From Amyloporia xantha (Eukaryota > Basidiomycota > Agaricomycetes > Polyporales > Adustoporiaceae), in contig JAYKKR010000001.1 of the NCBI GenBank assembly GCA_036971615.1, forward strand, positions 4,588,001 to 4,652,000: a stretch of 64,000 bases of DNA, in the 5' to 3' direction. The notes beneath the pieces were generated by a model. The model worked only from the letters and a program-made list of their open reading frames with translations, had not been told where the DNA came from and did no database searches. Both the position numbers and the translations under genes were made by a program. Shown piece after piece: positions 6,435 through 30,054 of this stretch; the stretch's first letter is position 1, and the number at the start of each line of letters is the position of its first letter.

Positions 6435-9228
6435 TCAAACCTGATCGACGTTGTTCTCAGCGTCGAGTTGGTTCAGCGGGTCATGCGTGGACTCGGTTCT
6501 GGTAGCCTGATCCTCATTCGTATGTTCGGTCGTGGCGACGTTTGCTACCGTGTGATGCGTCACGGGCATCGTATCCAGTAGGTACATCCCGGCCTTCAGA
6601 CCTGCCTTCCATCCTCTGAACTGCAATTCCATCTTCTTAGTAGTCAGTATTGTTGCACACCCTTCAGAAACATTCGTCTACTGACCAGTAGCCTTTCGTC
6701 TTTGTCATGTATGCTCGTTTTCAGACTCTGGCTGTGGCAGATGAAAGGTCCTCTTTCTGCGGCCATGTCCACGAGAATGCGCGGGTTCATTTCCCAAACC
6801 GTTTTGTATATCTGACGTATGGCTTCCGGTAGTTCGGTAATGCGGCATACAGAACCTACATGATCATATCAGTTCACGTTGCGTGCAACGCTGATTTCCT
6901 ACCATGTGCTATTTGTATCTCTTTGATTATCGCTGGTGTCCACTTTCCGATCGCAGTCAATTCCCGTACGAGCCAGCGACATACGACTTGGACTTCCTGG
7001 TTCGATACTCTGTATGCCCGTAGGTTGCTGGCGGGACAATCGTGATGAGTATATGCAATTGCGCAACGGAATGAACCTCCGTGTACGGGAACGCACCTTG
7101 CATATGGTGAGACGCTGTCGTTCAATGTCGTTATCTGACAGGTTGCGGTGGTTGGCATCACAGACACGAGTAGTGAGTTTCGTAATCCATGTATTTGCAT
7201 GCGCTGACGTATGGATTGCCATTCCCACAGGTTGCTGGGTGTCGCACCCCATAAGTCGAACTGGAGCCTACCTTTCTGCGCTGGAGATCCAGCCCATGTA
7301 TCGTACGGTCCGTCGTCTGCCGCCATGTCCGTGCTGGCATCGAGCGCAGCGTGATATATCGTCTCGAATATCTGTTTGTTGATGTGGCGGGCTGTTGGGG
7401 ATTCAAATGGCACACGCATTTCCATGAACACGTCTGCTAATCCTTGCACCCCTATCCCTATCGCCCTGTTTCGTAGTGCGGATCGGGTAGAGGATTGCGT
7501 GGGGTGATAAGATATGTCAATGGTCCGGTTCAAGTTTCGTACCGTAACCTTTACGACTTTGTGCATAAGGTCGTAATTGACTGTGTTGTCCCCCGATACA
7601 AAAGACGGAAGCACGATGGATGCCATGGCACACACGGCTGTCTCGTCAGGACTGGTGTGTTGCATGATGTCCATGCATAAGCCGGCGCATGTAACATTTC
7701 CGATGTTTATCTGGTTGCTCTTCGCTGTACAACAATCAATAAACATATAATATAGAATAATTCACGAACCGTTGACAGCGTCCTGGTATAGCACGAAAGG
7801 TGTTCCTGTTTCTAGCTGTGATTTGCATATCATAGACATAAGTTCCTTGGCCGGAAGGGTGAAACGCGCGCCTCCAGCGGCTTCGTATCGCTCATATGCG
7901 ATCTCGAACTTCGTGCCATATGTCGTTCTGAGATTTGGGGTATCCTCCGGCTCGAATACGGACCATTTCAACCCGGCCTCCACTCGTCGCATGCTGGGGG
8001 ACTGGTGAGTACATCGGAGTCGGTTCTATGTGGGCGTATTACTCACAAAATATCTGGCACCCACACTGCTGTTCGTATGTAGGGCATGCGCATAGTGTCT
8101 GGGTAGTCTCTGTTCTGGGTGTGTATGAATGTAATTATTTCCACATGCCACAACGCTAAGTAGGCCGTCATTGGTTCTGGTCGTTTGTAACTGTCTAGCG
8201 TCGCGTAGCCGGCAGCGGCATCGAATAGTTTTAGTAGCGGCACAACGCCTGGGGTGTCTGAACTTGTACGCCCTCCTGGTCTACCGAGTAGAGATGAATG
8301 TTCGTGAACGGGTAGTGAGTCTAACATGCTTGAACATACCGGCTGTGTGAAATATGTGCGACGTCGAGACCAAGCTCTCCGGCATGCCCACGTATTTTTG
8401 CGGACTCTCCTACTGCTTTGAACACTGCCGGCGCCGCTGACGTGTCCACTGACAACGCATAACAGGTACTGAGTTGTTGCATCTTGGTACCCGCATTGAT
8501 CAGGGTCTGAGACGCATGGACTATGAACCCTCGGGACAGGAGGTCGTACGTCTCCAACACTCGTTGGATGTCTCGCCCGTGAATTGCGACAGCCACTCGC
8601 ATCCACATATGTTGAGGCCTCTCTTCGGCGATTCCTTTCGAGCGCATCAAGTAATCGCCCTCTAACGTCTTGTACGCAAAACTAAACGATGGATATAGCA
8701 TGTCAGCTGGGTGATACCTCGTATGCCGGGACCACGTACAAATCAAAAGAGTAATCCCTTTGGTGAATGATCGCTGCGTCGAGCACGTGCGCGTTATACA
8801 TTACATCGCTCACGTATTGTGCATCGAGACACGCATCTGCCGTCGGGCATCAGTTGGGTATGGATAGTGTGCCGACCTCCCTACCTTCGTGTAACCGCTT
8901 TGTAACGCCAGAGAATGCCGTCACCGTGTTACGATGCAACCTACTCATTTCAATCCTTCCGGCCAACAGTGCATAATCCGGGTGGTGGTTGGCCATATTC
9001 ACTGCCGTGTGTGAGATCAGAGACTGTGCATCTCGTGTCAGCGTGTATGGTTACAGTCGAATGCGTAACTCACATCTATCTGGTCCGTCGTCATACGGTG
9101 CGTCCGGGCGTTGACCACTATATCGGCCACCCTGTATATGTAGGTAAACTGATGCCTTCCAGCTATTTATGCTTAGCGAGTACTTACTTCTTGATATCGA
9201 CGTATGCTTTGTCTGTTCCGAACGACAT
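6435..9228 (-). CDS. Class I ribonucleotide reductase large-subunit (R1)-like protein, altered active site
   Basis: About ten exons splice with GT-AG introns in a continuous frame to roughly 775 residues. Family landmarks: MANHHPDYALLAGRI, ERPQHMWMRVAVAIHG, QQLSTCYAL, PDIFMRRVEAG, TGTPFVLYQDAVN, SPDETAVCAMAS, IGIGVQGLADVFMEMR, HGLRNSLLVSVMP and GWKAGLKAGMY. R1 reduces ribonucleotides with a radical passed from R2. The three active-site Cys equivalents are present (QLSTC, GLC, TAVC). The canonical N-L-C-T-E, however, reads G-L-C-M-D (about residues 393-397), the radical-relay Tyr pair MYYLR reads MYLLD, and YLEPWHAD reads YLALWHVE. The N-terminal ATP-cone is absent: the protein begins MSFGTDKAYVDIKK, then enters the ten-helix part. 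The start is therefore uncertain. It is Helitron cargo and pairs with the R2-like gene at 28755-30054. Whether it is catalytic is doubtful. Confidence 0.85.
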
Positions 9229-9495
9229 CTACGAATTGTGCATGGTCAGTATAAGATAGTATACGAATGGTGTAAAGACCTGCCGTATGTAAGCGACGCA
9301 ATATCTGCATAAAGTTGTAGCACGTTAATAGTCTAATGGTGTGTCCTATGAATCACTCGCCTTGTCGCTTGTGAACACCTGTCGTCTCCTGGCGATCGAG
9401 GTTGATAGGGATTCATCACGTAAGTATCTACCCGTTTTTCGTTATATGACGACTGAGGCGACTCACCCTCCTAGATACGACAAATATTAGTACGC
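9229..9495. other. RNR1-like upstream region up to the LTR element
   Basis: Probable promoter side of the minus-strand R1-like gene, now separated from its former upstream DNA (21861 onward) by the LTR retrotransposon. No clear TATA or other motif was recognised. Confidence 0.35.
9492..9495. repeat. Target-site duplication ACGC, left copy
   Basis: Matches ACGC at 21857-21860 beyond the right LTR. Four bases is short for the family (five is common), but the next base differs (T versus A). Confidence 0.7.
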
Positions 9496-9881
9496 TGTAA
9501 GGCTTGGTGCTCCTCCCGCTGTGCGATAAGCACACCTGGAAGGAACAGATCAATGAGTCGAAGGGGAAGGGGAGTGAAGACGTTCGCAGCGTCTGGCACG
9601 GAGGATGAGCAAGAGAGAAAAGAGTTGATTGAGCTAGAGACTCGTAGGTATATGGGGGATGCTCTATGTGTGCTATCCCAGTCAAGTCGCAGTCGCAGTC
9701 CTAAGTACGCAGTAGATATCCCGAATCGCAGTAAAATGGGTCAAGCCGCTTGCTCGCCCTCTCGTAGAAGTAAAACGCAGTGTAGCTCCGCTGAGCAATA
9801 AAACCCGGTCGCGTGAAAATCAAAGTCCCAGTCGCAGCTCGTACCAGATGCTAGATCCCCTTCCGCCTCGTCCCCCTTCCT

Positions 9882-9890
9882 CATATATAC
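9882..9890 (+). promoter_or_regulatory. TATA-like element in the left LTR
   Basis: CATATATAC lies about 140 bp before the ATG of the LTR-borne antisense gene, in pyrimidine-rich DNA. It is duplicated at 20788-20796 in the right LTR. It could drive the plus-strand accessory genes; the assignment is by position only. Confidence 0.4.
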
Positions 9891-10025
9891 CTTGTCCCGC
9901 GTGCGCTGCCACGTCACTCTCCCTCCCGCTTCCTCCCGCTACCTCCCGCTACCTCCCCTCCGACTCTTCCCCTGACTTACTTATCCTCCTTCCGCGCGCC
10001 CTTCCCTCCCTTCGCCTCATTCGCC

Positions 10026-10825
10026 ATGTCTGAGCCTGCCGAACCCACCGACCCCATCGGTTCCCTCCATGTCCGCCGCTACCTCCTCCTCGTAGACGTG
10101 CTTCGCGCTGAGTGCGTTGTTGAGCCTTCATTCCGCCCTTCCGATCCGGCTGCTTGGCTTGCCTGGGCGCACGGAGTGCGCTGGCTGCTGGTTTGTCCAC
10201 CTTCTCTTTTACTTCTCTTTCCTTCCCCTCACGTCCCGTCCCGCAGCGCCTTGCCTATGAAGCTCGAGCCCAAGCCATAGCCGCGGGGAACCTCACGCTC
10301 CCTCCGCTCACTGCCTTCGTCACCCTCCGCGAGCTCGTCCACTACATCGACTCGATCTTCCGCTCCTCCCTGAGCCATCGCGGTGCAGTCCCCTATCCTG
10401 GGATCGCCTGGAGCCCCGACGAGGTTCGTTCCAATGCGCAGCGGGACGAAGCTGGTACTCCGCCTCCCCTCCCGTTGTACACGGAAGAGGCCTTCTGGAC
10501 CCCTCCCCGCATCGCCGAGGAACGTACCGATGAAGCTTTAGAACGGCTCGAACTTGTCGCCCGCCAGTTCTCGGACACTTTGGACCGTATGCGTCCCTAT
10601 CCGCGGGCGTTCGAAGACCTAGAGCACTCGATCCGTGTTGCCGCTCATGCTCTGGGAGGGAGGGGAGGACGTCGGGAGGGAGGTCCCTCGCGGGCCCGTA
10701 CCCCTGCGGAGGAGGATTTCCGTTACCACCGGGAGACTATTTATCGTCCCCCGCGCCACCGTTCGTTCTCTGACGTCGGCGGGGAAGGGCCCGACGCTCC
10801 CATCGACTTGTCGACCGTAGATTAG
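10026..10825 (+). CDS. LTR-borne antisense accessory gene A (left copy)
   Basis: Two exons. Exon 1 is 10026-10190 (exactly 55 codons, ending WLAWAHGVRWLL). Intron 10191-10246 (GTTTGT...CCGCAG) is followed by exon 2, 10247-10825, starting RLAYEARAQAIA. The product is about 247 residues, partly helical (EALERLELVARQFSDTLDRM), with a Gly/Arg-rich segment. I recognise no domain. It lies wholly inside the LTR, antisense to gag-pol. Exon 1 has the same length, intron phase and closing motif (DLQNWLRWVNALGQTW) as exon 1 of gene B at 11282, so the two are likely paralogues. Confidence 0.65.
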
Positions 10826-10969
10826 CGTTCCGTCCTGTAGTCGTTCCGTTCGAATGCCATGCTCGCTTCCGCCGAGCTCCTTTGTCCCGCGTGATCGCAT
10901 CTCCTCCGTTCCGCTGTCTCGTCCTGCCCTACCGTCCGTTCATAGGGTAGCGCGTACCCATTCCTTACA

Positions 10970-10983
10970 CCCCCTACCCACTT
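10970..10983 (-). promoter_or_regulatory. Polypurine tract
   Basis: Read on the minus strand, AAGTGGGTAGGGGG directly precedes the TGTAAG start of the downstream LTR. This is the expected position and composition for the primer of plus-strand DNA synthesis. Confidence 0.75.
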
Positions 10984-11281
10984 AAATTCCGACCGTCCTC
11001 GGTCGGTCCGCCGTCCTAATCCCCGAGCGAATCCCCGAGCCTTCAGGCGTCCGATCATCGCAGATGCACGCGATCGGGCCGCGATCGCGTTAAGATCGAT
11101 AGCGCTGGGGCACGCGCCCACCTCGAGGCGCCCCTGCCGCGCATCCCGCTGCTCCCCCAGAGGCTGCCAAACGAGGGGAACGGCACCCGCTTCTTCATCC
11201 CCAACGTCCTCCCCTTCCCTCCGTCCTCGCCCTTTACCTCCCCATCGCCCTCCCCGACCTCGACCTGCTCCCTCCGCAACC

Positions 11282-13075
11282 ATGTCCGTCGACCTCACCA
11301 CCCCTACCGCCGCCCGCCGCTCCCTCCCGGTCATCGAACAGCGCCTCGACACTCTGCGCAGCGCGGAGCCCACGCTCGATGAGGACGCCTCGCCCCAGGA
11401 CCTGCAAAACTGGCTCCGCTGGGTGAACGCGCTGGGTCAGACCTGGGTAAGCAACCGGACCACTCCTCCCCATCTCTGCCGCCTCCTAACTTTGCGACCC
11501 CCGCCAGGTGGCCCTGTCCGCGGCCCACGCTGTGGCCAGCCACCAAACGACTCCGCGCAGCGCTCCCCCCAGGGACCTGCAGGTCTGGGTCGCCGCGACG
11601 CGGCCGGCTCATGGCCTACCGCGACGATTTCCCCGTCGCAGACCAATATTATGACACTCTCCTGCAGCGCCTCTCCCCTTCCCATCACGCCGTCTTTCTC
11701 GCCGGCACCCAGAACTTCACCTGGAACCGCCGGGCTCGCACCCTCCGCAGCCTCTGGCCCCCTGCCTCGTTTCCTCCCAACGACGCCGACACCTCCGCCT
11801 CAGGCTCCCGCTATACGAGCCCGTCGGAAACGGACGGTAAGTCACGCCGCCTCTCCAGGCGGAAGCGTGCCGCTAACCCCGACGACCGAGGAGTTGGGGA
11901 CGATGAGGGAGAGGAGGAGGCAGATCCGTCGTCCGACCTCGCCCCGCCATCCCCGCCGCCACCACGCACCGTAGGCGGCAGGAAGCGGCAAACGAAGGGC
12001 AAGACGGCCGCCCCGAAGCCCCCAAAAGCGCCCCGTCTTTCGATCAAGGTTCCTCCCCGTCGCACCGGCACCGCCGCCGCCTCCGACCTCAAGAAGAACC
12101 TCGCGGATCGTCCGAACCGCGACCGGCGAGGCCCCATCGCCTACCTCAACCATCCGCCCTGCACGTTCTGCACCTACAAGGGTTATCGCTGCGCTGGCGA
12201 CGGCACCCGCCGCCACGTCTGCGAGCCGTGCATGATCGCGCGGAAGAAATGTTCCGTCCGCGACGAGCCGCCGGCGAGTCGTAAGTCCCTTCCCGCCCGT
12301 CCTCCCATAGACCTCCCCTTCACCTGTCTCATTCACAGAACACATCGAGTTCGTGGGCCTGCCATCCGATGAGGACGACGACGAAGAGCCCTACCCCCCC
12401 GAGTTCCCCCTCATCAACCGCCCCCGCCCCGTCGTCGTCATCCCGCCCCGTCCGCGCGCCCCCACCATCCGCGCCCCCGCCGCCTCCCCTGCACCCACGC
12501 CCGTCACTCCCCCTCCGCGTCCCTCCGTACCCTCCTCCGAGATCTTACCGTCCGCCGAGGAACCGTTGTTCCTTCCCGGGACCCCCGACCGCCCGATCTC
12601 CCCTCCATGGGAGCCCTCAAGCCTCCTTCCCGCCTTTTCCCCCCTTCCGCTCCATCCCCCTCCCGTCGTCATTCGCCGTCCTCGCAACCTCGACCTCCTG
12701 GACGTCGCCGCAGAGCCGCCGTGCGAGCCGCAGACCGAGCTCGAGATGTGGCTCGTCGCTCGGTTAGCGGCCACCACCGACTTCCTGTTCCAGATGGCCG
12801 ATCGAGCGCGGGACCTCGGGTACGCAGAGCAGTTCGGGATCGCTGACTACCCCGACAACACGCTCGACCCCGCTCGCTCCGCCAGCCCTGCCCCCGACTT
12901 CGTCGAAGGGTCCTCTAGCGGCCCCGCTCCTCATCCGGCTCCCGACAGCGACGACGCCGTGGCTGAGCTCCTGGCCGCCGAGCTCGACTCCCCTACGCTG
13001 CCGCCGCTGTCGCCCACCGACGAGGACATGTTAGACCTCACCGGGGCGTCCAAAGGGAAAGGGCGCGAAACGTAG
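11282..13075 (+). CDS. Retrotransposon antisense accessory gene B, Cys-rich zinc-binding-like protein
   Basis: Exon 1 is 11282-11446 (55 codons, ending NWLRWVNALGQTW, then GTAAGC). The main coding part follows in the frames of 11611-12280 and 12353-13075, joined by an intron near 12282-12338. It contains CTFCTYKGYRC and, about nine residues later, HVCEPCMIARKKC. That makes two Cys triplets (C-x2-C-x6-C each) resembling a fungal binuclear zinc cluster, flanked by basic residues and followed by a long Pro-rich acidic tail. A DNA- or RNA-binding role is inferred. Exon 2 as read from 11509 runs out of frame with the 11611 frame by one base near 11605, so either a small indel or an unseen intron is present. 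Confidence 0.5.
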
Positions 13076-13080
13076 CGCGG

Positions 13081-13399
13081 GCCTCCCCCTTGATTCGCGT
13101 AGTGTACGAAATGTACTTTTATCTCGTAGTCGTAGTACCCGTCAGTCTGTCGTTTGTACCGCTTTTCTTGTATGTACGCGCCGCCGCCCGCCGTTGATCG
13201 GCTAAAATCAATGCATGTCAGTTACTCGTCCCACAGTCCCCGTCCGCCCCGTGTGCCCCTGCCGCGTGTCTCCCCGCGTTCTGCGTAGAAGCCGCCTCGC
13301 GGCCAGCGCGTGTTGCGCCCCTAGGTATAACTACCGCCGCCCGTCCCCGATTTCCCTGAGTTTCTTCCACCTCGCCCCCCTGCCTTCCTGCCCAGCCTC
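13081..13399. other. Spacer between accessory genes B and C
   Basis: GC-rich internal DNA of the retrotransposon. No gene is supported on either strand; it probably contains the 3' end of gene B and the promoter of gene C. Confidence 0.35.
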
Positions 13400-13971
13400 A
13401 TGAGCGCGACGCCCCCGGTGTTTTCTCCTGAGGAGGCCCGCGAAAGGTACCTGCAAGTCCTCTGTGACACCCCCATCCCCTCCGATCCACCCGCACGCAT
13501 CGCGTGGGTCCACGCCGTAGACACCGCCGAGGTACGTGCTCCCCTTCCGCCCACACCATACTTTGTCCTCGAACTACCACCTAGGCCATCCTTCATTCCA
13601 CGCTCCCGGAGGACTATGATCCTTCGTCCCCGTCGGAGCCCGTCCCCGGGATCGATGTCCTTGCCCGCCGCGCAGTGGTGGACTCCTTCCGCCTGCGGTA
13701 CCTCCCGCATCCCCCACCGGTCCCTATCCGCCTAACTGCCTTAGAACTCCAAAACGTCCAACTCCAAGCCCGCATCGACCAACTCGAGCCCGCTCTCGCT
13801 CAGATCCTTCAAGTGCAAATGGACCCGCTGCGCTCTGACGTCATTGCCCGCGCCCTCGAGATCCTCTCAGAAGTAGATCACCGTTTGTCTCTCCAAGACA
13901 CGGCCCTTTCTTCCGCGCTGGAGTACGTCCATGTCCCTTCTTCGTGCCGAGGTCCACGCGCGTGCCCGTGA
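13400..13971 (+). CDS. Retrotransposon antisense accessory gene C, coiled-coil protein
   Basis: Exon 1 is 13400-13531 (44 codons, closing ARIAWVHAVDTAE). A GTACGT...CCTAG intron is followed by exon 2 from 13582 (AILHSTLPEDYDPSSPSEP). The layout and the x-W-V-H-A-V closing resemble genes A and B. Exon 2 contains a heptad-like helix (LELQNVQLQARIDQLEPAL). The frame ends at 13971, but a one-base shift near 13930 would continue the same style of helix (LLRAEVHARARD) to about 14150. That region overlaps, antisense, the 3' end of the integrase frame; probably only one strand is truly coding there. Confidence 0.45.
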
Positions 13972-15622
13972 TTCCTCGTCCGCCTTGCGTATCCTCCAAG
14001 ACCAGGTCGCCCACGGATTCGATCGAGCCGCCTTTTCCCTCTCTACCCACAACACCGTCATCCAGTCCCTTCTTCGCCGCGTCCTCGCCCTGGAAGCCCG
14101 CCTCCCTTCCCCGACCCTCCTCCCGTACCTTACTCTTCCCCCCGTCATCGGATCCTTCCTCCCCGCTCGATCCCTCCCCTCCCGTTTCCTCCCCATAATT
14201 CTTTTGCTCACTGTCCCGACCCACATCTTCCTCCCCCGCTTCCATTTCGTCCAATACCCCTTTTTGCGCTTCTTCCGCTTCCTCGACGATCTTGCGCACG
14301 TCTAGTGCAACCTCTTTTCGCGCCTTATACGGTACCACACGGAAAGCTGCGTACCGTAGTCTCGACACCGCTCCTGTTAGTTCCGCGAGTATGTAGGCTC
14401 CTCCTTTTGTACGCCGTACGACAACCATAGGCCCGAAATACCGGGGTTTTGATTTCCTGCTATGTTCCGTCTCAATCTGTGAGTTCCGCACTAGCACCAG
14501 ATCCCCCGCCGTGAACACAAAATCCTTGATTGTCCGCGCGAACCGCCGCTCGAAATCCTTCACCGACGCGTATCGAGCCGCTAGCACCCTCCGCCGTACG
14601 TCCCGCAAATCCTCCGCCCGTTTGAGCAGCTGCCGCCCCCGGATTTCAAGTAGGTCCACATCGCTGATCTCCTTCCGGTCGGGCGGCACCAAGTACGTAG
14701 CTTCCGCCAGGTCGAAAGGGAAAACTGGCTCGATCCCGTGCGCGATATAGAAAGGCGAGGTGCCCGTCGATTTCTGAATCGTCACCCGTTCCGCCCAAAA
14801 CACGGCATGCATCACCTTAGGCCACCCCTTCTCGTTCCCTCCACAAAGCTTAACCGCCGCTTCCCGTACGTCCCGGTGCCTCCGCTCCACGATCCCATTC
14901 GCCTGTGAGTTGTACGCTGAGATTCGGATATGGTTGATTTTGTACCGTTCCCGCAAGTGTTCCAACGCCGCGACAAACGGTGTCCCGTTATCCGTAACAA
15001 TTTCCTCCACCGCTCCCCACCGACACAGCAGCTCCTCGTAGATGAAGTTCCCAATCGTAACTCCTGTCTCCTTCCGCAGCATCCGCCATTCCGGGTAAGA
15101 CGACAGGGAACAACGTGCTTGGACGATATGCGTGTACCCGTATGCTGTTGGCATGTGCATCGAGTCCATGTGCACCTTCGAAAACAGCCCCCCCGGCATA
15201 GGTACCGTCGGTGGGATGTGGTACTTGTGCGCCTTGCGGAGCTGACACTCATGGCAGCTTCCCACATACCATTTTACGTCGTGATCGAGACTAACCCACC
15301 AGAATCGTTCGAGGAGCCGGGCGCGCACTGTGAAGATCCCTTTGTGCCCGAGGGAGTCGTGCGCCTCTTTCATCAGGCCGTACCGCTTCCCTTTCTCCAC
15401 CACCACCTTGTGCTTCCCTCCTTTATCTTTCTTCCAGAGCCTCCCCCTTTGACAAAGAACTTGCTGGCGTAACGGACGAACGAGGTGAACTGCCTCTCGT
15501 CCATTCCTTCCGGCCGCCTCGGGTCTCGTAAAAATTCGTCTACCTTCCGCACCCTTTCCTCCCGCGCCCCTCCGTTGCTGACCTCTGGGATCTCCACCCC
15601 CTCTCCCGCGTCCAGCGACCAC
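13841..15622 (-). CDS. Retrotransposon pol frame 3: integrase
   Basis: This frame holds the HHCC zinc module (AHDSLGHKG and, later, SCHECQLRK). It also holds the DDE core: MDSM near 15170, VTDNGTPFVAA near 14985, and NGIVERRHRDVREAA near 14895. A C-terminal part (KPRYFGPMVVVRR) resembles the GPY/F region of Ty3 integrases. Integrase inserts the cDNA into chromosomes. The first coding residues lie before the zinc module, after a one-base shift from the preceding frame near 15445. No chromodomain was seen. The last roughly 150 residues are Gly/Glu/Arg-rich low complexity antisense to accessory gene C and may not be real. Confidence 0.88.
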   Translation of the reverse strand: MVAGRGRGGGDPRGQQRRGAGGKGAEGRRIFTRPEAAGRNGREAVHLVRPLRQQVLCQRGRLWKKDKGGKHKVVVEKGKRYGLMKEAHDSLGHKGIFTVRARLLERFWWVSLDHDVKWYVGSCHECQLRKAHKYHIPPTVPMPGGLFSKVHMDSMHMPTAYGYTHIVQARCSLSSYPEWRMLRKETGVTIGNFIYEELLCRWGAVEEIVTDNGTPFVAALEHLRERYKINHIRISAYNSQANGIVERRHRDVREAAVKLCGGNEKGWPKVMHAVFWAERVTIQKSTGTSPFYIAHGIEPVFPFDLAEATYLVPPDRKEISDVDLLEIRGRQLLKRAEDLRDVRRRVLAARYASVKDFERRFARTIKDFVFTAGDLVLVRNSQIETEHSRKSKPRYFGPMVVVRRTKGGAYILAELTGAVSRLRYAAFRVVPYKARKEVALDVRKIVEEAEEAQKGVLDEMEAGEEDVGRDSEQKNYGEETGGEGSSGEEGSDDGGKSKVREEGRGREAGFQGEDAAKKGLDDGVVGREGKGGSIESVGDLVLEDTQGGRGITGTRVDLGTKKGHGRTPARKKGPCLGETNGDLLLRGSRGRGQ

Positions 15623-15834
15623 ACCATCAGTCCCCCTTCGTCCCTCTTCCCTCCCGGCGTATTCAAGACCTCCATGGTGAACGCGTAGGCCTCGTCAATC
15701 CACTCTTCAAAGTCATCTTCCTCTTCCGGGTCTTCCTCTGCTGCCCCCGCCGCGAAAGCCCATCCGCCCCCGCATGCCGTTCCCCCGGCACGTGTACCAG
15801 CTTGAAGTCGAATAGGAGGATCCCAGCGATCCAT
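15373..15834 (-). CDS. Retrotransposon pol frame 2: RNase H-integrase linker
   Basis: A short frame that bridges pol frames 1 and 3. Meaningful sequence runs from AAEEDPEEEDDFEEWIDEA to FVRYASKFFVKGG. The junction with frame 1 lies in a C-run near 15744-15752, and that with frame 3 in CCCCC near 15442-15451. Each join needs a one-base change. On its own it is not a gene but a piece of one broken pol. Confidence 0.7.
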   Translation of the reverse strand: MDRWDPPIRLQAGTRAGGTACGGGWAFAAGAAEEDPEEEDDFEEWIDEAYAFTMEVLNTPGGKRDEGGLMVWSLDAGEGVEIPEVSNGGAREERVRKVDEFLRDPRRPEGMDERQFTSFVRYASKFFVKGGGSGRKIKEGSTRWWWRKGSGTA

Positions 15835-18602: not shown

Positions 18603-19591
18603 CGCCGCCCCGTCCTTGCCCCTGTCTTCTTCACTTCTTCGAACCGCACTTCCTTCTTCTTCGCCCGCGCCAACTCTGCTTGGAGAACCCGGACCCTTTC
18701 CGACGGATCTTCCTCATCCGACGAACCTTCGTCCCTCGTCTCCACCATGTTCACGCCCTCGTATATCTGGAAAAGGTTCGCGGCCAAGTGCGGAGGGGCC
18801 TGTCGCTCGTTCCCCGCGACTCGTACCAGTTGCCCAGGGTTCTGGGCGTGCCACGAGTCCACTCGATCCTTCATGTACTCTCCAGGCAGGCCGCGCGGAA
18901 CGAACATGCTGTTCGGCAGCCGTACTTTCCCAGTCTCGTCCCGGTAGATCTTCCGGTCAAGGATATACTGGAGAATAATCCCGCAGTTCCGCATGAAGTG
19001 CTCCGGGTCCCCACAGAAGTTGCACAGGAAGTTGCCCGGCGCTCCTCCCGCTCCTTGCGCGACCCCTCCCCCGGTCCGCGGCGCCCCTCCCGCTCCTCCG
19101 CTGCGTCCCGCCAAGAACGCCTGCATCATCTGTATCGTCTGGTTGAAGAGCGCCAAGTCTACGCCCTCCGTCTTTACCACCGCGGTCGCTGCTGGAGGCG
19201 CTGTCGTCCCGCTCGTCCCTGCTGTGTCTCTTCCGCCCCCTCCCACGGCTCCTCCTCCTACTCCCGGGAGGCACTTCTGCGCCACCTTGTGCATTACGTC
19301 CATCCCCCACGGGTCATCCGGGTCGTGGTCGGGTTCTGCGATCTCCGCCCTCCGGGTAATCGTCCGCAGTTCTTCCTCCCCGAACCCGCGCATGTACACT
19401 TCGTCCCTGTGCCGCGCCGCTATCTTGCTCTTCGATATCAGGAAGGCTGCGACCGGGGAATACTCTCGATAATATGCGGCCTCCTCCCCCCTCGTCCGCA
19501 CCCCCTTGTCTCGCGCCGACTGCGCTATGCGATCGAGGTCTGCCGCGGTGTACCTCTTGTCTCCGTCCGCCCCCGGGTACAAGGCCTTCAC
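18407..19591 (-). CDS. Retrotransposon gag, C-terminal part with zinc knuckle
   Basis: Starts in the Gag helical region (ALYPGADGDKRYTAADLD, YYREYSPVAAFLISKSKIA). It includes a Gly-rich linker and a nucleocapsid-type knuckle CNFCGDPEHFMRNC (C-x2-C-x4-H-x4-C, near 18990-19030). The tail after EVRFEEVKK shifts frame into pol. It overlaps the preceding gag frame by four bases and is a continuation of it, not a separate gene. Confidence 0.85.
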   Translation of the reverse strand: MKALYPGADGDKRYTAADLDRIAQSARDKGVRTRGEEAAYYREYSPVAAFLISKSKIAARHRDEVYMRGFGEEELRTITRRAEIAEPDHDPDDPWGMDVMHKVAQKCLPGVGGGAVGGGGRDTAGTSGTTAPPAATAVVKTEGVDLALFNQTIQMMQAFLAGRSGGAGGAPRTGGGVAQGAGGAPGNFLCNFCGDPEHFMRNCGIILQYILDRKIYRDETGKVRLPNSMFVPRGLPGEYMKDRVDSWHAQNPGQLVRVAGNERQAPPHLAANLFQIYEGVNMVETRDEGSSDEEDPSERVRVLQAELARAKKKEVRFEEVKKTGARTGRRCGAQEGNRRGYLRPTYHGRARKRLREAKERGREEPRGNTSTRRRSNNGTRWRKRRRSSTGRRWR

Positions 19592-20505
19592 CCTCGCTTA
19601 AACACCAGATACACCCGCCCAGTGGCCCCATCCGCCGTCTTCCACAGTTCCTCTTGTTCCACCGTTAGGTACTTCAGCGCGTACCGTATCTTCTCTTCTT
19701 CCGTCGTAATCCCTGCTGCCGCGCACAGGTCCTCTAGGTCCTCGAAGTATCGCAGTAGATTGCGCGGTTCCCCGTCGAAGGTCGGCGCCGTCTTCGCCCC
19801 TCGTACGGGCATGGATGAAGTAGGCATGGCACGCGCGGGTACTGTAGCACTTGTCGATTGGGTAGGTGCGGGACGGGGCGAGCTCGCTCGTGATGGAGGG
19901 AGTGGTATGCTCGCGGGATCTACGTATGTCGACAGGATGGTAGGCTCGACGACCTCGCGTTTGACTTGGACTGAGGGTGGTGCCGAAATCGTTCGTCGGC
20001 GTGGACGTTCGGGAGGAACTGGAGATGAGCGGGTTGACGGGGTCACGGAAGATTTGGTGATTGATGAGATCGTGGATGTTTCTTCGGTACTCCTTCCTTC
20101 CACCGGCGGCTCGTGGTTTACTGGGGAATGGAGCGGAGGCGAAGGATGTTCGAGGGATACGGAGCGCGTGTTGCTTTGTGACCGGAAGGGAGGGATTCTG
20201 ACGTCGAAAGGGTTATCCGAGTCTGAGTCGTCGAACGCGGCCGGTCGGAGGGGAAAGTGAGGAAGGTCGAGATCTAGTCGGGGGGAGATAGGACTGTTCT
20301 GGGCTAAGAGAAGTTCTTGCTGTAGAGTACGGTCCGGCACGGCGATGGTGCGCGAACGAAGTCTTCGAACTATAAGATTCCCCCTCGCGGTGGGCTCCAC
20401 TTGTAAGGCTTGGTGCTCCTCCCGCTGTGCGATAAGCACACCTGGAAGGAACAGATCAATGAGTCGAAGGGGAAGGGGAGTGAAGACGTTCGCAGCGTCT
20501 GGCAC
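19588..20505 (-). CDS. Retrotransposon gag, N-terminal part
   Basis: A 305-residue frame: a Ser/Pro-rich low-complexity N-terminus, then a capsid-like end with APTFDGEPRNLLRYFEDLE and YALKYLTVEQEELWKTADG, typical of basidiomycete gypsy Gag. It stops at a TGA that a one-base shift (FKR to RVKALYPG) would bypass. The first residues overlap the right LTR and the primer-binding site, so the true start is probably an internal codon downstream of 20402. Confidence 0.8.
   Translation of the reverse strand: MPDAANVFTPLPLRLIDLFLPGVLIAQREEHQALQVEPTARGNLIVRRLRSRTIAVPDRTLQQELLLAQNSPISPRLDLDLPHFPLRPAAFDDSDSDNPFDVRIPPFRSQSNTRSVSLEHPSPPLHSPVNHEPPVEGRSTEETSTISSITKSSVTPSTRSSPVPPERPRRRTISAPPSVQVKREVVEPTILSTYVDPASIPLPPSRASSPRPAPTQSTSATVPARAMPTSSMPVRGAKTAPTFDGEPRNLLRYFEDLEDLCAAAGITTEEEKIRYALKYLTVEQEELWKTADGATGRVYLVFKRG
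20382..20399 (-). promoter_or_regulatory. Putative tRNA primer-binding site
   Basis: On the minus strand TGGAGCCCACCGCGAGGG starts 2 nt inside the upstream LTR end (CTTACA-AG-TGG). The leading TGG pairs with a tRNA CCA end. I did not identify which tRNA supplies the remaining 15 bases. Confidence 0.6.
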
Positions 20506-21856
20506 GGAGGATGAGCAAGAGAGAAAAGAGTTGATTGAGCTAGAGACTCGTAGGTATATGGGGGATGCTCTATGTGTGCTATCCCAGTCAAGTCGCAGTC
20601 GCAGTCCTAAGTACGCAGTAGATATCCCGAATCGCAGTAAAATGGGTCAAGCCGCTTGCTCGCCCTCTCGTAGAAGTAAAACGCAGTGTAGCTCCGCTGA
20701 GCAATAAAACCCGGTCGCGTGAAAATCAAAGTCCCAGTCGCAGCTCGTACCAGATGCTAGATCCCCTTCCGCCTCGTCCCCCTTCCTCATATATACCTTG
20801 TCCCGCGTGCGCTGCCACGTCACTCTCCCTCCCGCTTCCTCCCGCTACCTCCCGCTACCTCCCCTCCGACTCTTCCCCTGACTTACTTATCCTCCTTCCG
20901 CGCGCCCTTCCCTCCCTTCGCCTCATTCGCCATGTCTGAGCCTGCCGAACCCACCGACCCCATCGGTTCCCTCCATGTCCGCCGCTACCTCCTCCTCGTA
21001 GACGTGCTTCGCGCTGAGTGCGTTGTTGAGCCTTCATTCCGCCCTTCCGATCCGGCTGCTTGGCTTGCCTGGGCGCACGGAGTGCGCTGGCTGCTGGTTT
21101 GTCCACCTTCTCTTTTACTTCTCTTTCCTTCCCCTCACGTCCCGTCCCGCAGCGCCTTGCCTATGAAGCTCGAGCCCAAGCCATAGCCGCGGGGAACCTC
21201 ACGCTCCCTCCGCTCACTGCCTTCGTCACCCTCCGCGAGCTCGTCCACTACATCGACTCGATCTTCCGCTCCTCCCTGAGCCATCGCGGTGCAGTCCCCT
21301 ATCCTGGGATCGCCTGGAGCCCCGACGAGGTTCGTTCCAATGCGCAGCGGGACGAAGCTGGTACTCCGCCTCCCCTCCCGTTGTACACGGAAGAGGCCTT
21401 CTGGACCCCTCCCCGCATCGCCGAGGAACGTACCGATGAAGCTTTAGAACGGCTCGAACTTGTCGCCCGCCAGTTCTCGGACACTTTGGACCGTATGCGT
21501 CCCTATCCGCGGGCGTTCGAAGACCTAGAGCACTCGATCCGTGTTGCCGCTCATGCTCTGGGAGGGAGGGGAGGACGTCGGGAGGGAGGTCCCTCGCGGG
21601 CCCGTACCCCTGCGGAGGAGGATTTCCGTTACCACCGGGAGACTATTTATCGTCCCCCGCGCCACCGTTCGTTCTCTGACGTCGGCGGGGAAGGGCCCGA
21701 CGCTCCCATCGACTTGTCGACCGTAGATTAGCGTTCCGTCCTGTAGTCGTTCCGTTCGAATGCCATGCTCGCTTCCGCCGAGCTCCTTTGTCCCGCGTGA
21801 TCGCATCTCCTCCGTTCCCCGTCCGTTCATAGGGTAGCGCGTACCCATTCCTTACA
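20402..21856 (-). repeat. Right LTR (upstream LTR for the gag-pol transcript), 1455 bp
   Basis: Identical by eye to the left LTR, except that it lacks the 19-bp segment around position 10918-10936 of the left copy. It starts TGTAAGG and ends CCTTACA. It should carry the gag-pol promoter on the minus strand. Confidence 0.95.
20932..21731 (+). CDS. LTR-borne antisense accessory gene A (right copy)
   Basis: Same two-exon gene as 10026-10825 (exons 20932-21096 and 21153-21731) with an identical predicted protein. From this LTR it would be transcribed outward into the Helitron rather than across the retrotransposon. Confidence 0.65.
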
Positions 21857-21860
21857 ACGC
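21857..21860. repeat. Target-site duplication ACGC, right copy
   Basis: Pairs with 9492-9495. Confidence 0.7.
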
Positions 21861-23711: not shown

Positions 23712-23718
23712 CGTTGTA
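23712..23718. repeat. Target-site duplication of E1, left (CGTTGTA)
   Basis: Repeated exactly at 27165-27171. Removing E1 and one copy restores the host reading frame. Confidence 0.85.
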
Positions 23719-24079
23719 CAGCTGCTTATGTACTAATGATGCACCAACATGAGGGGTAGGCCCAGGAACGCTTATGCACCAGGCAGCGCATTGGCCTGGC
23801 TGTTGATGCATCACTTCCTGGGGCTTCGCCGGAACCTCCGGGGCCTCCTCCCTTTCGCCGTAGGCCCCCTTCGGCATCACGGCTTAATACCATATCAGGT
23901 AGGTAGATTTCCAAAAGGGTCTGGGTCACAAAATATGTGGCGGAATTTATATCAGGGGTGGCACAGACTTATTTGGGCACCAAAAATGTATTAAAATGGC
24001 AAAAAATATGGGATTTCTTTTTTCACTTCAGTAGCTAGGGTACAATGATAACAAAAGCTATATACAATAGGTATAGCGA

Positions 24080-24790
24080 GCGTGGACAGACGCAGGAGCG
24101 TGCACGGACGGCGAGCGCGGACGGATGAAGCGGCGTGGACGGACGAAGCGAGCGCGGACGGACGGAGCGAGCGCGGACGGATGGAGCGAGCGCGGACGGT
24201 CGGGCGAGCGCGGACGGACGGAGCGAGCGCGGACGGACGGGCGAGCGCGGACGGACGGGCGAGCTAGCAAGGGACGGGCGAGCGTGCAAGGGACGGGTGA
24301 GCGAGTATGGGGCAGCATGGACGGACGGGGCAGCTTGCATGGGCAGGAGCAGCGTGCAAGGGCCGGGCGGCGTGCAAGGGCGGGGTGAGCGAGCACGGAC
24401 AGGGGAGCGGCAGGCATGCAGCAGCGAGCGGCGGGCGTGCAGTGGACGGGGAGCGGCGGACGTGCAGTGGACGGGGGAGCAGCGGACGTGCAGCGGACGG
24501 GGAGCAGCAGCCCGCGGCGCGATCGAGCGGCGTGCAGCGGAGTAGGCAGGGCGAGCAAATGTGCGGCGGCGTGAGACGAGTCAGGCAGGGCGGGGTGAGC
24601 GCGCAGCAAGGGTGCTGATTGTACAACGGGGGCTGGAAGTGTGCAGTGCGAGCGGTGAGCGTGCAACGGGAATAAAGACGGCACAGCGGGGATGGCGACG
24701 GCGCAGCTGGGACAGCGACGGTGCAGCGGGGATAGCGACGGTGCAGCGGGGACAGCGACGCCGCAGCAGCAGGAGGGTAGGCAGGGGAGT
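24080..24790 (+). repeat. G-rich tandem-repeat arm of E1
   Basis: Variants of GAGCGCGGACGG/ACGGGCGAGC repeat for about 700 bp with strong G over C skew. Long low-complexity frames on both strands here are by-products of the repeat. Confidence 0.85.
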
Positions 24791-24921
24791 GGGCAGGGGA
24801 GTGAGCCTTGATGCGGGGATGTGCGCTGTCGGACTGTGTTTACAGATAGCCAGTCAGTAATTGAAAGATACAAAATAATGTTGTTAACTTACTTTATCAC
24901 GCTGCTCGCGGGCAGCAGCGG

Positions 24922-25033
24922 GACGTCGTCAACGTTGTGGACGACGTCGAGGAGACGACCAACGCTGACGCGTCGCTGTTGGCGCGCACTACGGGAACAG
25001 CCGGACTACCCGATTTGGGTGTGTGGCTGAAGT
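24922..25033 (+). other. Conserved peptide-like segment in the E1 centre
   Basis: Reads SLLARTTGTAGLPDLGVWLK in one frame. The E2 counterpart reads SLLARTTGTAGIPDLGLWLK with several silent third-base differences. This suggests past protein-level constraint, perhaps a remnant of a captured exon or transposase. No family recognised. Confidence 0.45.
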
Positions 25034-25849
25034 TTTGCTCGCGCTGCTCAGTGAGTACGGCTATTTTGAGGAAATATCTTCGGCATGTAACCTATGGATA
25101 GTAGTAAGAATGTATAGAATAGTATGTCTCTTAGTTATTTTGATTATTTCTCACTTCCTCAGAGAGATATAAACAAAACATATGTATTTTGGGTCCAGGA
25201 TAGTAAACATCCGGCATATTTTGGTAAATAGAATATGGACTAGCCTATGAATTGAGAGACTGAAATACAACCTGTAATAGAGAGTATATATAAATAAGTT
25301 TTAGGGTGGATAGGTAGACGTTGGCGGCCGCAATATTCGAAACGGCCGTGTAAGTAGGTTAACAGACGTTTTGAGCATCGAGTTGCGCCTGGCTGAGCGC
25401 GCCACCTGATTGGCTGCGCCAGGCCTCGGCCGACTCGGGACACTTCCTGTACATGCACTCTTCATCGTGCATCCCTCAAATTTGGTGAGCTTATTCTAAT
25501 ATTACTTTACTGCTCTAATATGAATTCTTGGAAAGATTAAGGCACTGCTGAGAGCATAGTAATGTTCTCAATATGCGTAAGACGAATATAAGACGTTTAA
25601 GACGCCTTCCGCTTTTGGTAAGCCGGTACTTCCCGGACTGCCCAAGGTGACGCGTCTCCTTCTGTAGCTACTCGATGACAACGACAACGACAACGACAGC
25701 GTCGTCGTCCCGCTGCTGCCTGCGAGCAGCGTCAAAAGGTATAATTTTCTTTCTTTGACTGTATTCCTGCACAGCTAATCTGTGCTACATCAGGAGCTTC
25801 TGCTGCACACCTGCTAGCCGGCCCTGTGGATGCCCTGCTCCGCACGCCT

Positions 25850-26780
25850 GCGCCGACATCGCTGGGCCGCCCCGCTGCTCGTACAACCTCGCCGCTCGTA
25901 CGCTCCGCCCCGCCGCTCGTACGCCCCACCCCGCCCCGCCGCTCATTGCCACCATCCCATCCCTGCCGCTCGCTCCTGCCGCTGGTATGTCCCACTCCCG
26001 CAGCCGTCTGCCTCGCCGCTCGTCTGCACCCGCCCCACTGCTCGCGTGTCCCACCCCTACTGCTTGCACACCCCCGCTGCTCGCACCCGCACAGCTTGTG
26101 CGTCTTGCCCCGCTGCTCGTATGTCCCCGCTGCTCGTCCCGGTGCTCATATCTCCTGCCCTCGTACATTCCCGCCCCGTCGCTCGTATGTCCCGCTGCGT
26201 TTCTCATACATCCTGGCCCCGCCGCTCGTACGTCCCCCTAACTCATCAACCCCCGCTCGCACGTCCGACCGCTGCCACACATCACCTCTACTGTGCCGCC
26301 CGTACGTCCCCCGCGCTGCTTGCATCCTCGCTCTTCTCATCGCTGCGCACTCGCCCCGTCGCTGCTCACTCCACCGCCTGTCGCCTCTCGCTCGCCTACC
26401 CAACGATCGACCCATCCCGTTCGCTCGCTTGCCCCATCCCTGCCTGCTCGCTTGGCCGGCACTTGACCCATTTATTCGACGGTCCCTGTTCGCTCACCTG
26501 CCTGACGCTCGACCCATCCCCGCTCGACCCATTCCTGCTCGCTCGCCCGCTTGATGCTCGCCCGATCCCCACTCGCTCGCCTGCCTAACGCTCGTCCGCC
26601 CGCCGCTCGTCCCCTCCACACTCGCTCACTCGATCCGTGCCTGCTTCCCCATCCGTGCTCGCTCGCTTGCCCGGTCCCCACTCGCTCGCACAGCCACGCT
26701 CGGGTCCCCCCGTCATCCGTCGGCGCTCGCTCGGTCTGCGCTCGCCCGCCCAGCCCCCCCCTCGTTCGATCTGCATTCGC
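25850..26780 (-). repeat. C-rich tandem-repeat arm of E1
   Basis: Complementary in style to the G-rich arm (CGCTCGCCCGCCT-like units), forming the right half of the foldback. Confidence 0.85.
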
Positions 26781-27164
26781 TCACACTGCAGCAGGCCACG
26801 GGTTATATACGAGTTTTCATATTTGTATTGCTATAGCCTGTAGCTACTGTAGCTACTGAAGAAAATAAAAATATATTTTTTTGCTATTTGTATACAGTTT
26901 TTGATGCCCAAATGAGTCTGTGGCACCCGAAATAACTATTCCACCATAAATAAATAATCAAAGGCCTTTGAACTACATGCCTACCCGTTATGGTAATAAG
27001 CCGTGATGCCGAAGGGGGCCTACGGCGAACGCTAGGGGGCCCCGGAGGTTCCGGCGAAGCCCCAGGAAGTGATGCATCAACAGCCAGGCCAATGCGCTGC
27101 CTGGTGCATAAGCGTTCCTGGGCCTACCCCTCATGTTGGTGCATCAGGTGTACATAAGTTGGTG

Positions 27165-27171
27165 CGTTGTA
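27165..27171. repeat. Target-site duplication of E1, right (CGTTGTA)
   Basis: Second copy of the 7-bp duplication. Confidence 0.85.
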
Positions 27172-28304
27172 CGCCGGACACGATTCGTATTCTGTGTCGA
27201 GTGTCACGCAGCACACAGTCGGGGGTGGAGGCGTATAGTCAACGGGCTTGGGATGTCGACCGGTTTTTCAGTCCTTGGTTCGCGGACCCCGTCGGCTTTC
27301 GGCGTAAGCTCGATGCATGTAATGCGGTCGTATCTGGGTCACAGGCGTTGCAGTTTTTTGACCGTACGACTTACGATGACGGTGATCTCGATATCTACGT
27401 CCCCCTGGACGGTCTATTGGAATTGGGTAGATGGATATTTAGTGCTGGGTTTTCTTACACAGGTGGAAGAGCGGAGTACTTCGACGCCGCAGCATTACGC
27501 CTCCCTGGTCGCTTGTATAACAACTACAGGATGCCATCGAGGGATGGTACCCGTTTCACCTTGTTCAACTTCTACCGCGGAGCTAGTTTCTTGGCGCCGA
27601 GAGCTCGATACTCTCACATTCAGTTAATCGTTGTTCCGTACGACCCGGTCACGCACATCTTTGGATTCCATTCGAGTACGTCCAGTTTGTCGTACTCAGA
27701 GGTTCGATCGTATGCTGACTACGAATATGTAGCTGGCGTCATGAACTACATCACAGGATCGTATGCGGTCGCTATGTTTGCACGGCACACTTTCGTCAAT
27801 CGATATTTCTACGTGGTTGGCGACCTATCGGAGGCACCATCCACCCGTGGCTGGTTACAAAAGTACAAAGCCAGGGGGTGGATCATAATCGGGTCGGACA
27901 CGCCTCCGGATGATGATACTGATCGTGCGTGCGGTGATCGGTATGCGGGAGACCGTCGTACATGGACCATGTCATTTAGACTAGGTATGTCGGTATGTGT
28001 ATCGTGACGTGTGATGATTGAGTATAATGCGTTACAGGTCGTGATGGATTTTCAGACGCGGTACGCACCGCGTCAAGCTTACGATTTGAAGTTCTCAGCC
28101 ACTACCATCATACGGTTGCCCCTGGGGCCCACCTTACGATATGTCCCCGTTTCATGTGCAGGTCAGTGTCAGATATTGTATGTGTGGTATTGATGCAATG
28201 CGTCTGACGAGTCTGGTTATCTCAGTCCGTCTGCGTTTATGCGCGGCCGTGGGTGGGAACACTACGGTGGTACCTTCGAGACTATGACGGCATTTGGCGC
28301 TTGA

Positions 28305-28754
28305 CAATTGTGTTATTTGAGTACTGCTCAATTCAATGTCTTTGTCAATATTGGTAGTTTACACTGCTTGGTCCCTTAGCACGATAGTGTATTATACTTC
28401 ACGGTCACAATACGACTTCATATCTTCGTATGTTATGTCGCATAACTGCCTGACTACGGTATCGTCCTTGAACATATGTTTTACGTTGCTATCTGTACAA
28501 AGGATGATGTCTATAATGAGGCGACACGCGACCTCGGTAATCTTACGCTGTGTCCCCTATTCGCTCTGTATATACTTAATATTCGGATGTAGGTCTAGCG
28601 GCCGTTCATTTCTGTTATCTATCGATTTTATGGTGGTCTGAACGTCATCCAATCCTGATGTCGGCTTAATGGTTGTCGTGAGCTTGTAGCTGATTGCGTA
28701 CAACATCTTATTTTGCTCGTATTTGGTTTACCAACTATATTACAATTCAATACA
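28305..28754. other. Intergenic DNA between convergent genes
   Basis: Lies between the stop of the nucleotidyltransferase-like gene (+) and the 3' end of the R2-like gene (-). AT-rich patches could be polyadenylation regions. No gene seen. Confidence 0.4.
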
Positions 28755-30054
28755 CTATGTAGACGAAATCCATGCGTGGGGTGCTCTAATCCTCAGCGCT
28801 GTAACATTTCGATCAGCATGCAATTGTGTGTGGTGTTGAACTACATACGTCACGTAACTGACGCTCGGACTACTTCCATTAGTGTACGAACTCGTTCCGT
28901 TGACGTAGTCTGACATTGCTATGTTTTCGGAGTGTCCGGATGTACCATTCGCCTGCATGCTGTCCATGAAGGAGAACTGCAAGGTATGATGTTTGTTATT
29001 AGGTTGACCTATTCGATATAAAGATGCAACTCACGGGATTCACGCTGTGATACAACGAGGTGTATCCGAGTGCGTTGAGTAGGTTATCAGCAACACTTTC
29101 GATATAATACCCCATACTCTCTGTGCATAGACCCGTTAACGGTTGAGGTAGCGCATCTAATGGGGTTAGTATATTTGATTGCACGGATTCACGTATCTTA
29201 TGTATGCGTACCATTAAAGAACCTCTTCTCCAGATACACTGCATCGGCTATAATCGCATTTGCGTATTCTGACGGCGCCTTCCTTTCCAGGTGTTCGTTC
29301 ATTACGCATGCAAAATCCGTGCGTATTCCCTCGTCTCTTGCGGCGAGTTCGTTACATATGCACAAACCAGGCATCATGCCTCTGCTCCTGAGCCATGAAA
29401 TCGACGCGAACGATGAAGAAAAGAAAATGCCTTCGACCGCAGCAAACGCGATCAACTTCGTAGAGAAAGTATGGCGCTGGGTCGTATGCCAACCCCTGCA
29501 CCAGTTCGCCTTTGCTCGGATACTCTGAGCGGTCCGATTATTAGTGAACAGGGCGTTTCGGGTGTCGGTGTCAGGTATCAAAACCGACATGATCATCGAG
29601 TACGTCTCATACCGTACGTTTTCCCTGTATGCGATGTTATTACGTGAATTATTCATATAACAGGTCACGTACATCATTGTCTGAACACCGTAGAAGGCAC
29701 GGACCTCTGCCACAGGAACATCTGCGCATATCCTGGAGACAAACTCTGTAGTTTGGACGCCATCATACGCCGCGAAGAACGCAAGAATAGTGCCAACAAA
29801 TTGCCGCTCTTCCGTAAGCATATTGTTTTCCCAATGACGGTAGTCGTTGGAAAGATCGATATTCCCCGCCGTCCATATACTCGCCTGTGCGACCTTATAT
29901 ATGTTCCATAGCTACAAGCAATCAGTTGCTGTACTCACACCTGCATCAAGCGGCGTACCGCTGGGTACCGAACTGGATACATCGCAAACCGTGTCGGGTC
30001 GGGGCGTGTGATTGCTTCGCCTGTGGTGCCGACGTGGTTTGTGGTTTGATCCAT
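28755..30054 (-). CDS. Ribonucleotide reductase small-subunit (R2)-like protein lacking both iron-ligand histidines
   Basis: Five exons (30054-29941, 29911-29673, 29624-29212, 29156-29035, 28976-28755) sum to 1110 bp, exactly 369 codons plus stop. Landmarks: RFAMYPVRYP, SIWTAGNIDLSND, LAFFAAYDGV, FAAVEGIFFSSSFASI, SRGMMPGL, GYYIESVADNLLNALGY and VNPFSFMDSM. R2 normally holds a di-iron/tyrosyl radical. Ligands D57, E119, E182 and E216 and the radical Tyr (Y126) are in place. The two His ligands are Arg, however: ENIHSE reads ENVRYE (R122), and DEGLHCDFA reads DEGIRTDFA (R219). The C-terminal tail does not match the usual FFEKRV...DF ending. All introns have clean GT-AG borders, so this is not an ordinary decayed pseudogene. 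It likely pairs with the R1-like protein. Confidence 0.88.

Follow-up and report, generated by a model that had tools for sequence, protein, structure and literature searches.

Large Helitron-like elements of Amyloporia xantha carry both subunits of a ribonucleotide reductase, often with altered catalytic residues

The window analysed here is a stretch of 64 000 nucleotides of the Amyloporia xantha genome (C1:4588001-4652000; the genome searched comprised 46.8 Mb in 60 contigs). It contains a complete Helitron-like element of 49 569 bp (window positions 3843-53411) in which the RepHel gene, on the + strand, is accompanied by genes for both subunits, R1 and R2, of a ribonucleotide reductase (RNR). 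The same pair accompanies RepHel at all ten loci found for the window RepHel clade. Residues of the radical chemistry are replaced in both subunits in the window and in most other lineages, and in one set of four lineages, termed group B, both genes remained under strong purifying selection after such residues had been lost. On sequence grounds, we consider it rather probable that the family keeps R1 and R2 as a maintained, non-catalytic pseudo-RNR that is under selection at least in group B.

The element and its family

The 3' end of the element was located by matching window positions 50400-57400 to two small elements, both of which begin with the family 5' terminus and end at the same point as the window element. 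These two copies (L060, 563 bp; L061, 251 bp) are non-autonomous and carry both termini. The 5' terminus (3843-3872, + strand) begins TTCCTGGACACAAAGTGTC and contains a strong hairpin (DNA fold -6.6 kcal/mol, z -2.56). The 3' terminus (53381-53411, + strand) ends in CCTA and contains an inverted repeat of the 5' end together with a small GCCC-GGA-GGGC stem, which folds no better than shuffled sequences (z 0.40). The terminal inverted repeats are asymmetric in the window element and L061, with TCCTGGACA at the 5' end and TGTCCAGGA some 20 bp short of the 3' tip, and are imperfect in L060. Both window flanks run on unbroken in a paralogous empty site (C34:2189983-2191498); L059 reads GCGATA followed by CAGCAA and the window reads GCGATA, the element and then TAGCAA. 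Because the flanks are continuous there, the element was assigned to 3843-53411; it lies between an A and a T, and there is no target duplication. The two small copies are inserted in the same manner, the three flanks being GATA^T, ACAA^T and AATA^T, and all three copies begin with TTCC and end with CCTA, which are not the 5'-TC and 3'-CTRR ends of Helitron1.

The 19-base 5' terminus at 3843 was found with at most one mismatch beside eight of the ten RNR elements described below, the window counted. A candidate with two mismatches lies 21 kb to the left of the R1 of copy C58, and a search for the common 5' terminus at the C19 element gave none. The near-identical copies C45a, C45b and C5 start to diverge from each other at this terminus. 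Further 5' termini without an RNR match nearby were seen at C12:939354, C34:1054587, C3:137506, C12:3056093 and C58:1459713. Within C45:1044715-1149100, the start of C45b, at GAAACAA^TATTTATT, falls in the 3' part of C45a, 52.1 kb from the start of that copy; one member of the family seems to have inserted into another.

Searches of the genome gave 32 R1, 27 R2 and 45 Helitron_like_N matches, all of which are lower bounds. Thirty of the R1 matches and 23 of the R2 matches lie in ten RepHel-bearing elements; the other two R1 matches belong to the host R1 gene and the other four R2 matches to two host R2 genes. With the window RepHel as the query, ten loci gave long pieces of 43-64% identity and all ten were RNR elements. 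The remaining RepHels that were scored gave long pieces of 28-31% identity, or 40% confined to some 230 residues of the helicase; scoring covered 23 of the 88 candidates, and the counts are lower bounds. Both R1 and R2 are thus carried at 10/10 loci found for this clade. The ten elements account for twelve of the Helitron_like_N matches, and no R1 or R2 match was found within 60 kb of the other 33. Since all ten loci carry the pair and none of the other Helitron_like_N matches does, the pair is read as old core cargo. The first-pass annotation had proposed that the pair is Helitron cargo, which is borne out by the position of both genes with RepHel inside 3843-53411. An isolated capture, which it had held open as the neutral alternative, conflicts with the presence of a similar pair beside every RepHel found of the clade. 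The carriers moved recently, given that over the long stretches compared the group B copies C45a, C45b and C5 share 99.3-99.9% identity. Two other accounts were discarded: a single capture event, because R1 and R2 accompany all ten RepHel loci, and chance or wrong gene calls, because introns are conserved and Pfam matches are present.

The RepHel gene of the window (31230-37241, + strand) is an open frame of 2004 amino acids with Helitron_like_N (PF14214, 1.2e-28) and PIF1 helicase (PF05970, 4.3e-25) domains. It carries HCH, YYITDYITK and GGTGKT, which we take to be the HUH Rep, two-Tyr and helicase motifs of Helitron RepHel proteins. RepHel, R1, R2 and a further gene, X, were found in all four lineages for which the surroundings were read (window, C58, C19 and C45a), in an order and orientation that vary between lineages. 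The order in C58 matches that of the window (F-box-like, R1, X, R2, RepHel, Y, Z, BTB), with protein identities of 37-57%.

Catalytic residues and selection

Gene models were obtained with a spliced-alignment script and residues were mapped on alignments; for R1 and R2 we assume the human/mouse residue numbering and the residue roles that go with it. The window R1 gene (9228-6435, - strand; 11 exons) has no stop codon in its model of 751 amino acids, which matches the barrel domain PF02867 (3.1e-138) and PF00317 (1.4e-19). The window R2 gene (28755-30054, - strand; five exons read) is open after splicing, with 363 codons, or 336 if an extra intron at 28849-28799 is removed. The R1 stop falls at 6435 and the start of R2 at 30054. 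The two proteins are 44% (R1) and 45-46% (R2) identical to their host counterparts. The earlier statement that both genes splice into open frames therefore stands, and the length of exactly 370 codons given for R2 was not reproduced.

The residue replacements that had been noted from the window sequence were recovered on the alignments. Both di-iron His ligands of R2 are Arg (H173R and H270R), with D139, E170, E233, D266 and E267 and the radical Tyr (Y177) retained. R1 has Gly and Asp in place of the conserved Asn and Glu (N427G and E431D) and Tyr-Leu in place of Tyr-Tyr (Y738L, with Y737 kept). C218, C429 and C444 are also retained, which makes four of the seven R1 residues checked, and the C-terminal tail has no CxxC. 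Judged by these residues, neither R1 nor R2 of the window qualifies as a subunit of a catalytic class Ia RNR. The ATP cone, which had been described as missing from R1, is incomplete, and its C-terminal part remains (profile positions 34-87 of 88; 19.0 bits against a cut-off of 25.8). The first cone exon of the host R1 was matched in the host itself (E = 1.5e-06) and went unmatched in the R1 loci of all ten elements (best E = 2.6; 1.4-13 for longer element stretches) in a search of low sensitivity, in which Trametes cones match the host cone at E = 0.09 and the upstream sequence of several copies is short.

The copies differ in what they have kept. C19 retains 7/7 R1 and 9/9 R2 residues checked and has a CISC tail. 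In C58 the replacements are C429S and Y738N in R1 and D139H and E170K in R2. Group B consists of C45a (representing the near-identical C45b, C5 and C23), C26, C1b and C3; all four of its lineages have N427S, Y737F and Y738H in R1 and Y177N and E267K in R2, and C218, C429 and E431 are altered in some R1 members. The thiyl-radical Cys is absent from R1 of C58 and C3. The numbers of checked R1 residues kept, out of seven, are five in C58, four in C45a, three each in C26 and C1b and one in C3. R2 has lost two ligands in C58, one ligand and the Tyr in C45a, C26 and C1b, and two ligands and the Tyr in C3. Group B R2 retains W103, D139, H173, E233, D266 and H270 in four of four lineages and E170 in three. 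A C-terminal CxxC is also present in R1 of C26 (CYKC) and C3 (CFEC). At Y738 each of the three altered lineages has a different replacement, and both subunits are altered in all six altered rows of the comparison.

Selection was estimated from pairwise dN/dS (nonsynonymous to synonymous rates) by the Nei-Gojobori method with a codon bootstrap. The six pairs formed by the four group B lineages gave values of 0.049-0.120 for R1 and 0.121-0.201 for R2, far from 1, with upper 95% bounds of at most 0.156 and 0.287, respectively. The least saturated R1 pair, C45a-C26, gave 0.113 (0.085-0.147), and the same pair gave 0.121 (0.072-0.185) for R2; for R1 of C45a-C1b, 269 of 500 bootstrap samples were usable, with dS near saturation. 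The losses common to all four group B lineages most simply predate their split, so that selection acted on proteins that were already without radical-path residues. The earlier suggestion of selection for a non-canonical role thus gains support for group B and none for the window copy, for which dS is saturated, as it is in all pairs between the window, C58, C19 and group B.

The modelled frame is uninterrupted in eight of ten R1 copies (interrupted in C5 and C23) and in six of ten R2 copies (interrupted in C1b, C23, C45b and C3). Comparison of near-identical copies gave 14 mismatches against 43 gap openings, 28 of the latter being single bases beside the same base. As indels outnumber substitutions between such copies, some of the frameshifts may be assembly errors, and the C1b R2 interruption, which lies near an exon edge, may be an error of the model. 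Open frames of about 675-750 codons persist across lineages that are just 37-52% identical.

Origin, relatives and other genes of the element

The canonical class Ia reference genes were the host R1 (C58:1370k) and the host R2 pair (C2:148-150k). The element proteins share their fold domains and differ from them in the catalytic residues, except in C19. The two host R2 genes, both canonical, lie head to head (C2:147616-150518), about 1.2 kb apart, and are 80% identical in protein sequence. The intron phases of the host R1 (1,2,2,2,1,2) recur in order in R1 of C19, C58 and group B, together with two further introns, which indicates that the element R1 came from a fungal genome and not from cDNA. 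In a 23-row R1 tree, a branch with 100/100 support separates the canonical fungal R1s, among which that of the host groups with Laetiporus and Fomitopsis, from the elements and three divergent polypore R1s. The elements do not form a single clade in the best tree, although a single clade is not rejected (p-AU 0.179, from the approximately unbiased test). A recent capture from the Polyporales host gene, represented by a constraint joining the elements, the three relatives and four Polyporales R1s, costs 8.4 log units and is not rejected outright (p-AU 0.055). Owing to long branches these placements are unsure.

The three divergent R1s, P0053 and P0085 (both Trametes cingulata, 58% identical to each other) and P0098 (Polyporus arcularius), lie on the element side of the tree, yet they are intact at 7/7 residues and in the CxxC tail. 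N-terminal cone sequence is present in all three, that of P0053 being below the Pfam cut-off. Elsewhere, the closest R1s were at most 46% identical among the 120 best of 4142 matches and at most 42% identical among the 120 best of 3490; five R1s among the matches listed were aligned for residues, and degenerate R1s may occur in other species. RepHels of about 50% identity occur in Trametes pubescens and T. cubensis among the matches listed. Scans of IMG/VR with RepHel and P0098 gave no relative.

Among described Helitrons, the window family shares with Helitron2/FoHeli, as portrayed in PMC5148889, the RepHel type, asymmetric terminal inverted repeats and non-autonomous derivatives. The same source gives those elements a 5' hairpin and a weaker 3' stem; in the window element the 5' hairpin has a z of -2.56 and the 3' stem one of 0.40. 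It also states that Helitron2 inserts after TTTT (TNAT in FoHelis) and before T or C. The flanks of the window family do not show this preference; insertion between A and T is the feature given there for Helitron1, unlike Helitron2/FoHeli (PMC5148889). A size of 50 kb and the fixed RNR pair likewise set the family apart from Helitron2/FoHeli as described in that account (PMC5148889). The HELPO1 Helitrons of Pleurotus ostreatus are likewise basidiomycete elements with captured genes, one to four in number and some with viral domains, and differ in that the main text describing them makes no mention of ribonucleotide reductase (PMC4289320). Judged by titles and abstract openings, the open-licence literature yielded no report joining a Helitron and an RNR pair, in agreement with the first-pass annotation. 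Gene capture by Helitrons is already known, and the pair is a new addition as far as the literature found goes.

Gene X (27036-28004, + strand) is conserved in four of four element lineages examined, the other copies being L040:2943-3914, L048:2710-3627 and L044:7395-8129. Its motif SGSQALQFF..DLDIYV resembles what we take to be a nucleotidyltransferase signature. Pfam and PHROGs scans of the window copy gave no match, the C45a copy gave a single sub-threshold HTH_33 match, and the predicted structure has a mean pLDDT (the per-residue confidence score) of 45. To the left of R1 lies an open frame of 531 amino acids for an F-box-like protein (4429-6021, - strand; PF00646, E = 0.0031, below the cut-off), whose syntenic counterpart is present in C58 and, in part, in C19. 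Downstream of RepHel, conserved proteins Y (37570-38238, + strand) and Z (38352-38846, + strand) have syntenic homologs in C58 (37 and 51% identical, respectively) and no Pfam match, and a BTB/POZ protein (40608-41663, + strand; PF00651, 1.5e-07) also has a syntenic homolog there. A protein common to the window and C19 elements (49000-50079, - strand) is 50% identical over 314 amino acids.

A Ty3/gypsy long terminal repeat (LTR) retrotransposon of 12.3 kb (9496-21818, - strand) is nested between R1 and gene X and separates R1 from R2; its 1417-bp LTRs are 100% identical, which points to a recent insertion. It sits 268 bp upstream of the R1 start and may alter R1 expression. GC-rich tandem-repeat blocks lie inside the element at 23719-27165 and 44217-47734, in direct and inverted copies that are 76-90% identical to each other. 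To the right of the element, an ArAE_2_N transporter-like gene (57622-59040) is probably an ordinary host gene.

Interpretation and alternatives

On the reading that we favour, an old family of large Helitron-like elements carries R1 and R2, and X in the four lineages read, as core cargo beside RepHel. A functional class I RNR was probably the original cargo, because the C19 copy and the three polypore relatives are intact. At least three lineages then changed residues of the radical chemistry, each in R1 as well as R2 and with substitutions of its own, with a presumed loss of activity. R1 and R2 of group B afterwards stayed under purifying selection, and would have done so as a non-catalytic complex. 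It is the strong purifying selection in group B after the losses that suggests that the pair is kept as such a complex.

Several observations weigh against this reading. Catalytic columns were lost no faster than other invariant columns: in seven tests on R1, C3 alone was low (P = 0.0027, uncorrected), and the catalytic columns of group B R2 were if anything better kept (P = 0.04, 0.06, 0.04 and 0.17, uncorrected). The earlier idea that the active site was a target of matched loss in the two subunits is thus not upheld, column sampling giving targeted loss no support. Non-catalytic invariant columns of R2 are kept at 74% in C19 and at just 42-45% in group B. Saturation of dS makes the order of loss and selection unreadable for the window and C58 copies, and apparent frameshifts affect two R1 and four R2 copies. 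Truncation of the ATP cone is established for the window R1 alone and not as a feature of the family. In R1, the non-catalytic invariant columns are kept at 72-85% with an overall identity to the host of 41-49%; as the catalytic columns were not lost faster, the pattern suggests a relaxation of the chemistry within a protein that is still constrained overall.

A wider proposal can be put forward tentatively: the transposon family would have turned a captured two-subunit RNR into a selected pseudo-RNR, independently in several lineages, through which it would govern the nucleotide supply of the host or a host restriction factor for its own rolling-circle copying. It would then be a transposon counterpart of the betaherpesvirus R1, with both subunits. 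The mechanism that we prefer is more doubtful still. Because dATP inhibits class Ia RNR through the ATP cone, an R1 with a truncated cone could, on joining host R1, relieve this inhibition without catalysis. R1 with a truncated cone and R2 would retain their folds and bind one another or subunits of the host; by interfering with the cone-dependent, dATP-inhibited assembly of host RNR they would increase deoxynucleotide (dNTP) levels for copying a 50-kb element. As the main alternative, these R1 and R2 surfaces may serve to bind a host defence factor.

It is unlikely that the pair is still a catalytic RNR, with the C19 type supplying dNTPs and the altered lineages using unusual chemistry or mixed complexes with host subunits. 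Mixed complexes have a precedent in yeast Rnr4, an R2 paralog that has no metal ligands, yet is needed for the complex and works with Rnr2; Rnr4 differs from the element R2 in being a host gene. The canonical residues of C19, the CxxC tails of C26 and C3 and the residues that group B R2 retains would fit continued catalysis. They are set against the absence of the radical Tyr and of both R1 relay Tyr residues from all four group B lineages and of the thiyl-radical Cys from C58 and C3. In addition, the C19 RepHel has an in-frame TGA which, with no 5' terminus found, means that the canonical copy is not clearly mobile.

By analogy with herpesviruses, R1 and R2 might bind a host defence or regulatory factor, in the manner of herpesvirus R1, which inhibits APOBEC3B or NF-kappaB signalling, although we give this only a small chance. 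Betaherpesvirus R1 proteins (UL45, M45 and U28) are described as conserved after losing enzyme activity, and that of human herpesvirus 6B as sequestering a host protein (PMC11772975). The BORF2 protein of Epstein-Barr virus is reported to inhibit APOBEC3B (PMC9747160). These pseudoenzymes come from animal viruses and are likened to the element proteins by their pattern of loss, not by sequence kinship. The betaherpesviruses have no R2 according to the same account (PMC11772975), whereas both subunits are kept here, which points rather to an R1-R2 complex.

Neutral decay, in which the pair hitchhikes on the Helitron as captured host genes and gathers substitutions without function, is improbable. 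The losses do differ by lineage, the catalytic columns are not specially lost, dS is saturated for the window and C58, and frames are interrupted in the R1 and R2 copies named above, several perhaps by assembly errors. Against decay stand the presence of both genes at 10/10 loci, the long open frames that persist across divergent lineages and the group B dN/dS of 0.05-0.20 after the common losses; judged from these codon comparisons, neutral decay is rejected for group B. Large DNA viruses commonly carry an RNR pair, but an endogenous DNA virus or a chromosomal cluster of RNR paralogs in place of a transposon is very improbable in view of the exact ends, the A^T insertion, the empty site and the small non-autonomous copies, the lack of any capsid or packaging family in the Pfam matches of eight window proteins and the confinement of the PHROGs matches of five window proteins to the helicase region.

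Helitrons were previously known to capture fragments of genes and, in some cases, complete genes; in the present family, both RNR subunits accompany one clade of RepHels at all loci found. With this association, nucleotide supply or its control would be part of the life cycle of a transposon, as in large viruses. Natural replicates are available within one genome, namely one copy with its checked catalytic residues in place and three lineages with different losses, so that the reason why inactive RNRs are retained by mobile elements can be tested directly.

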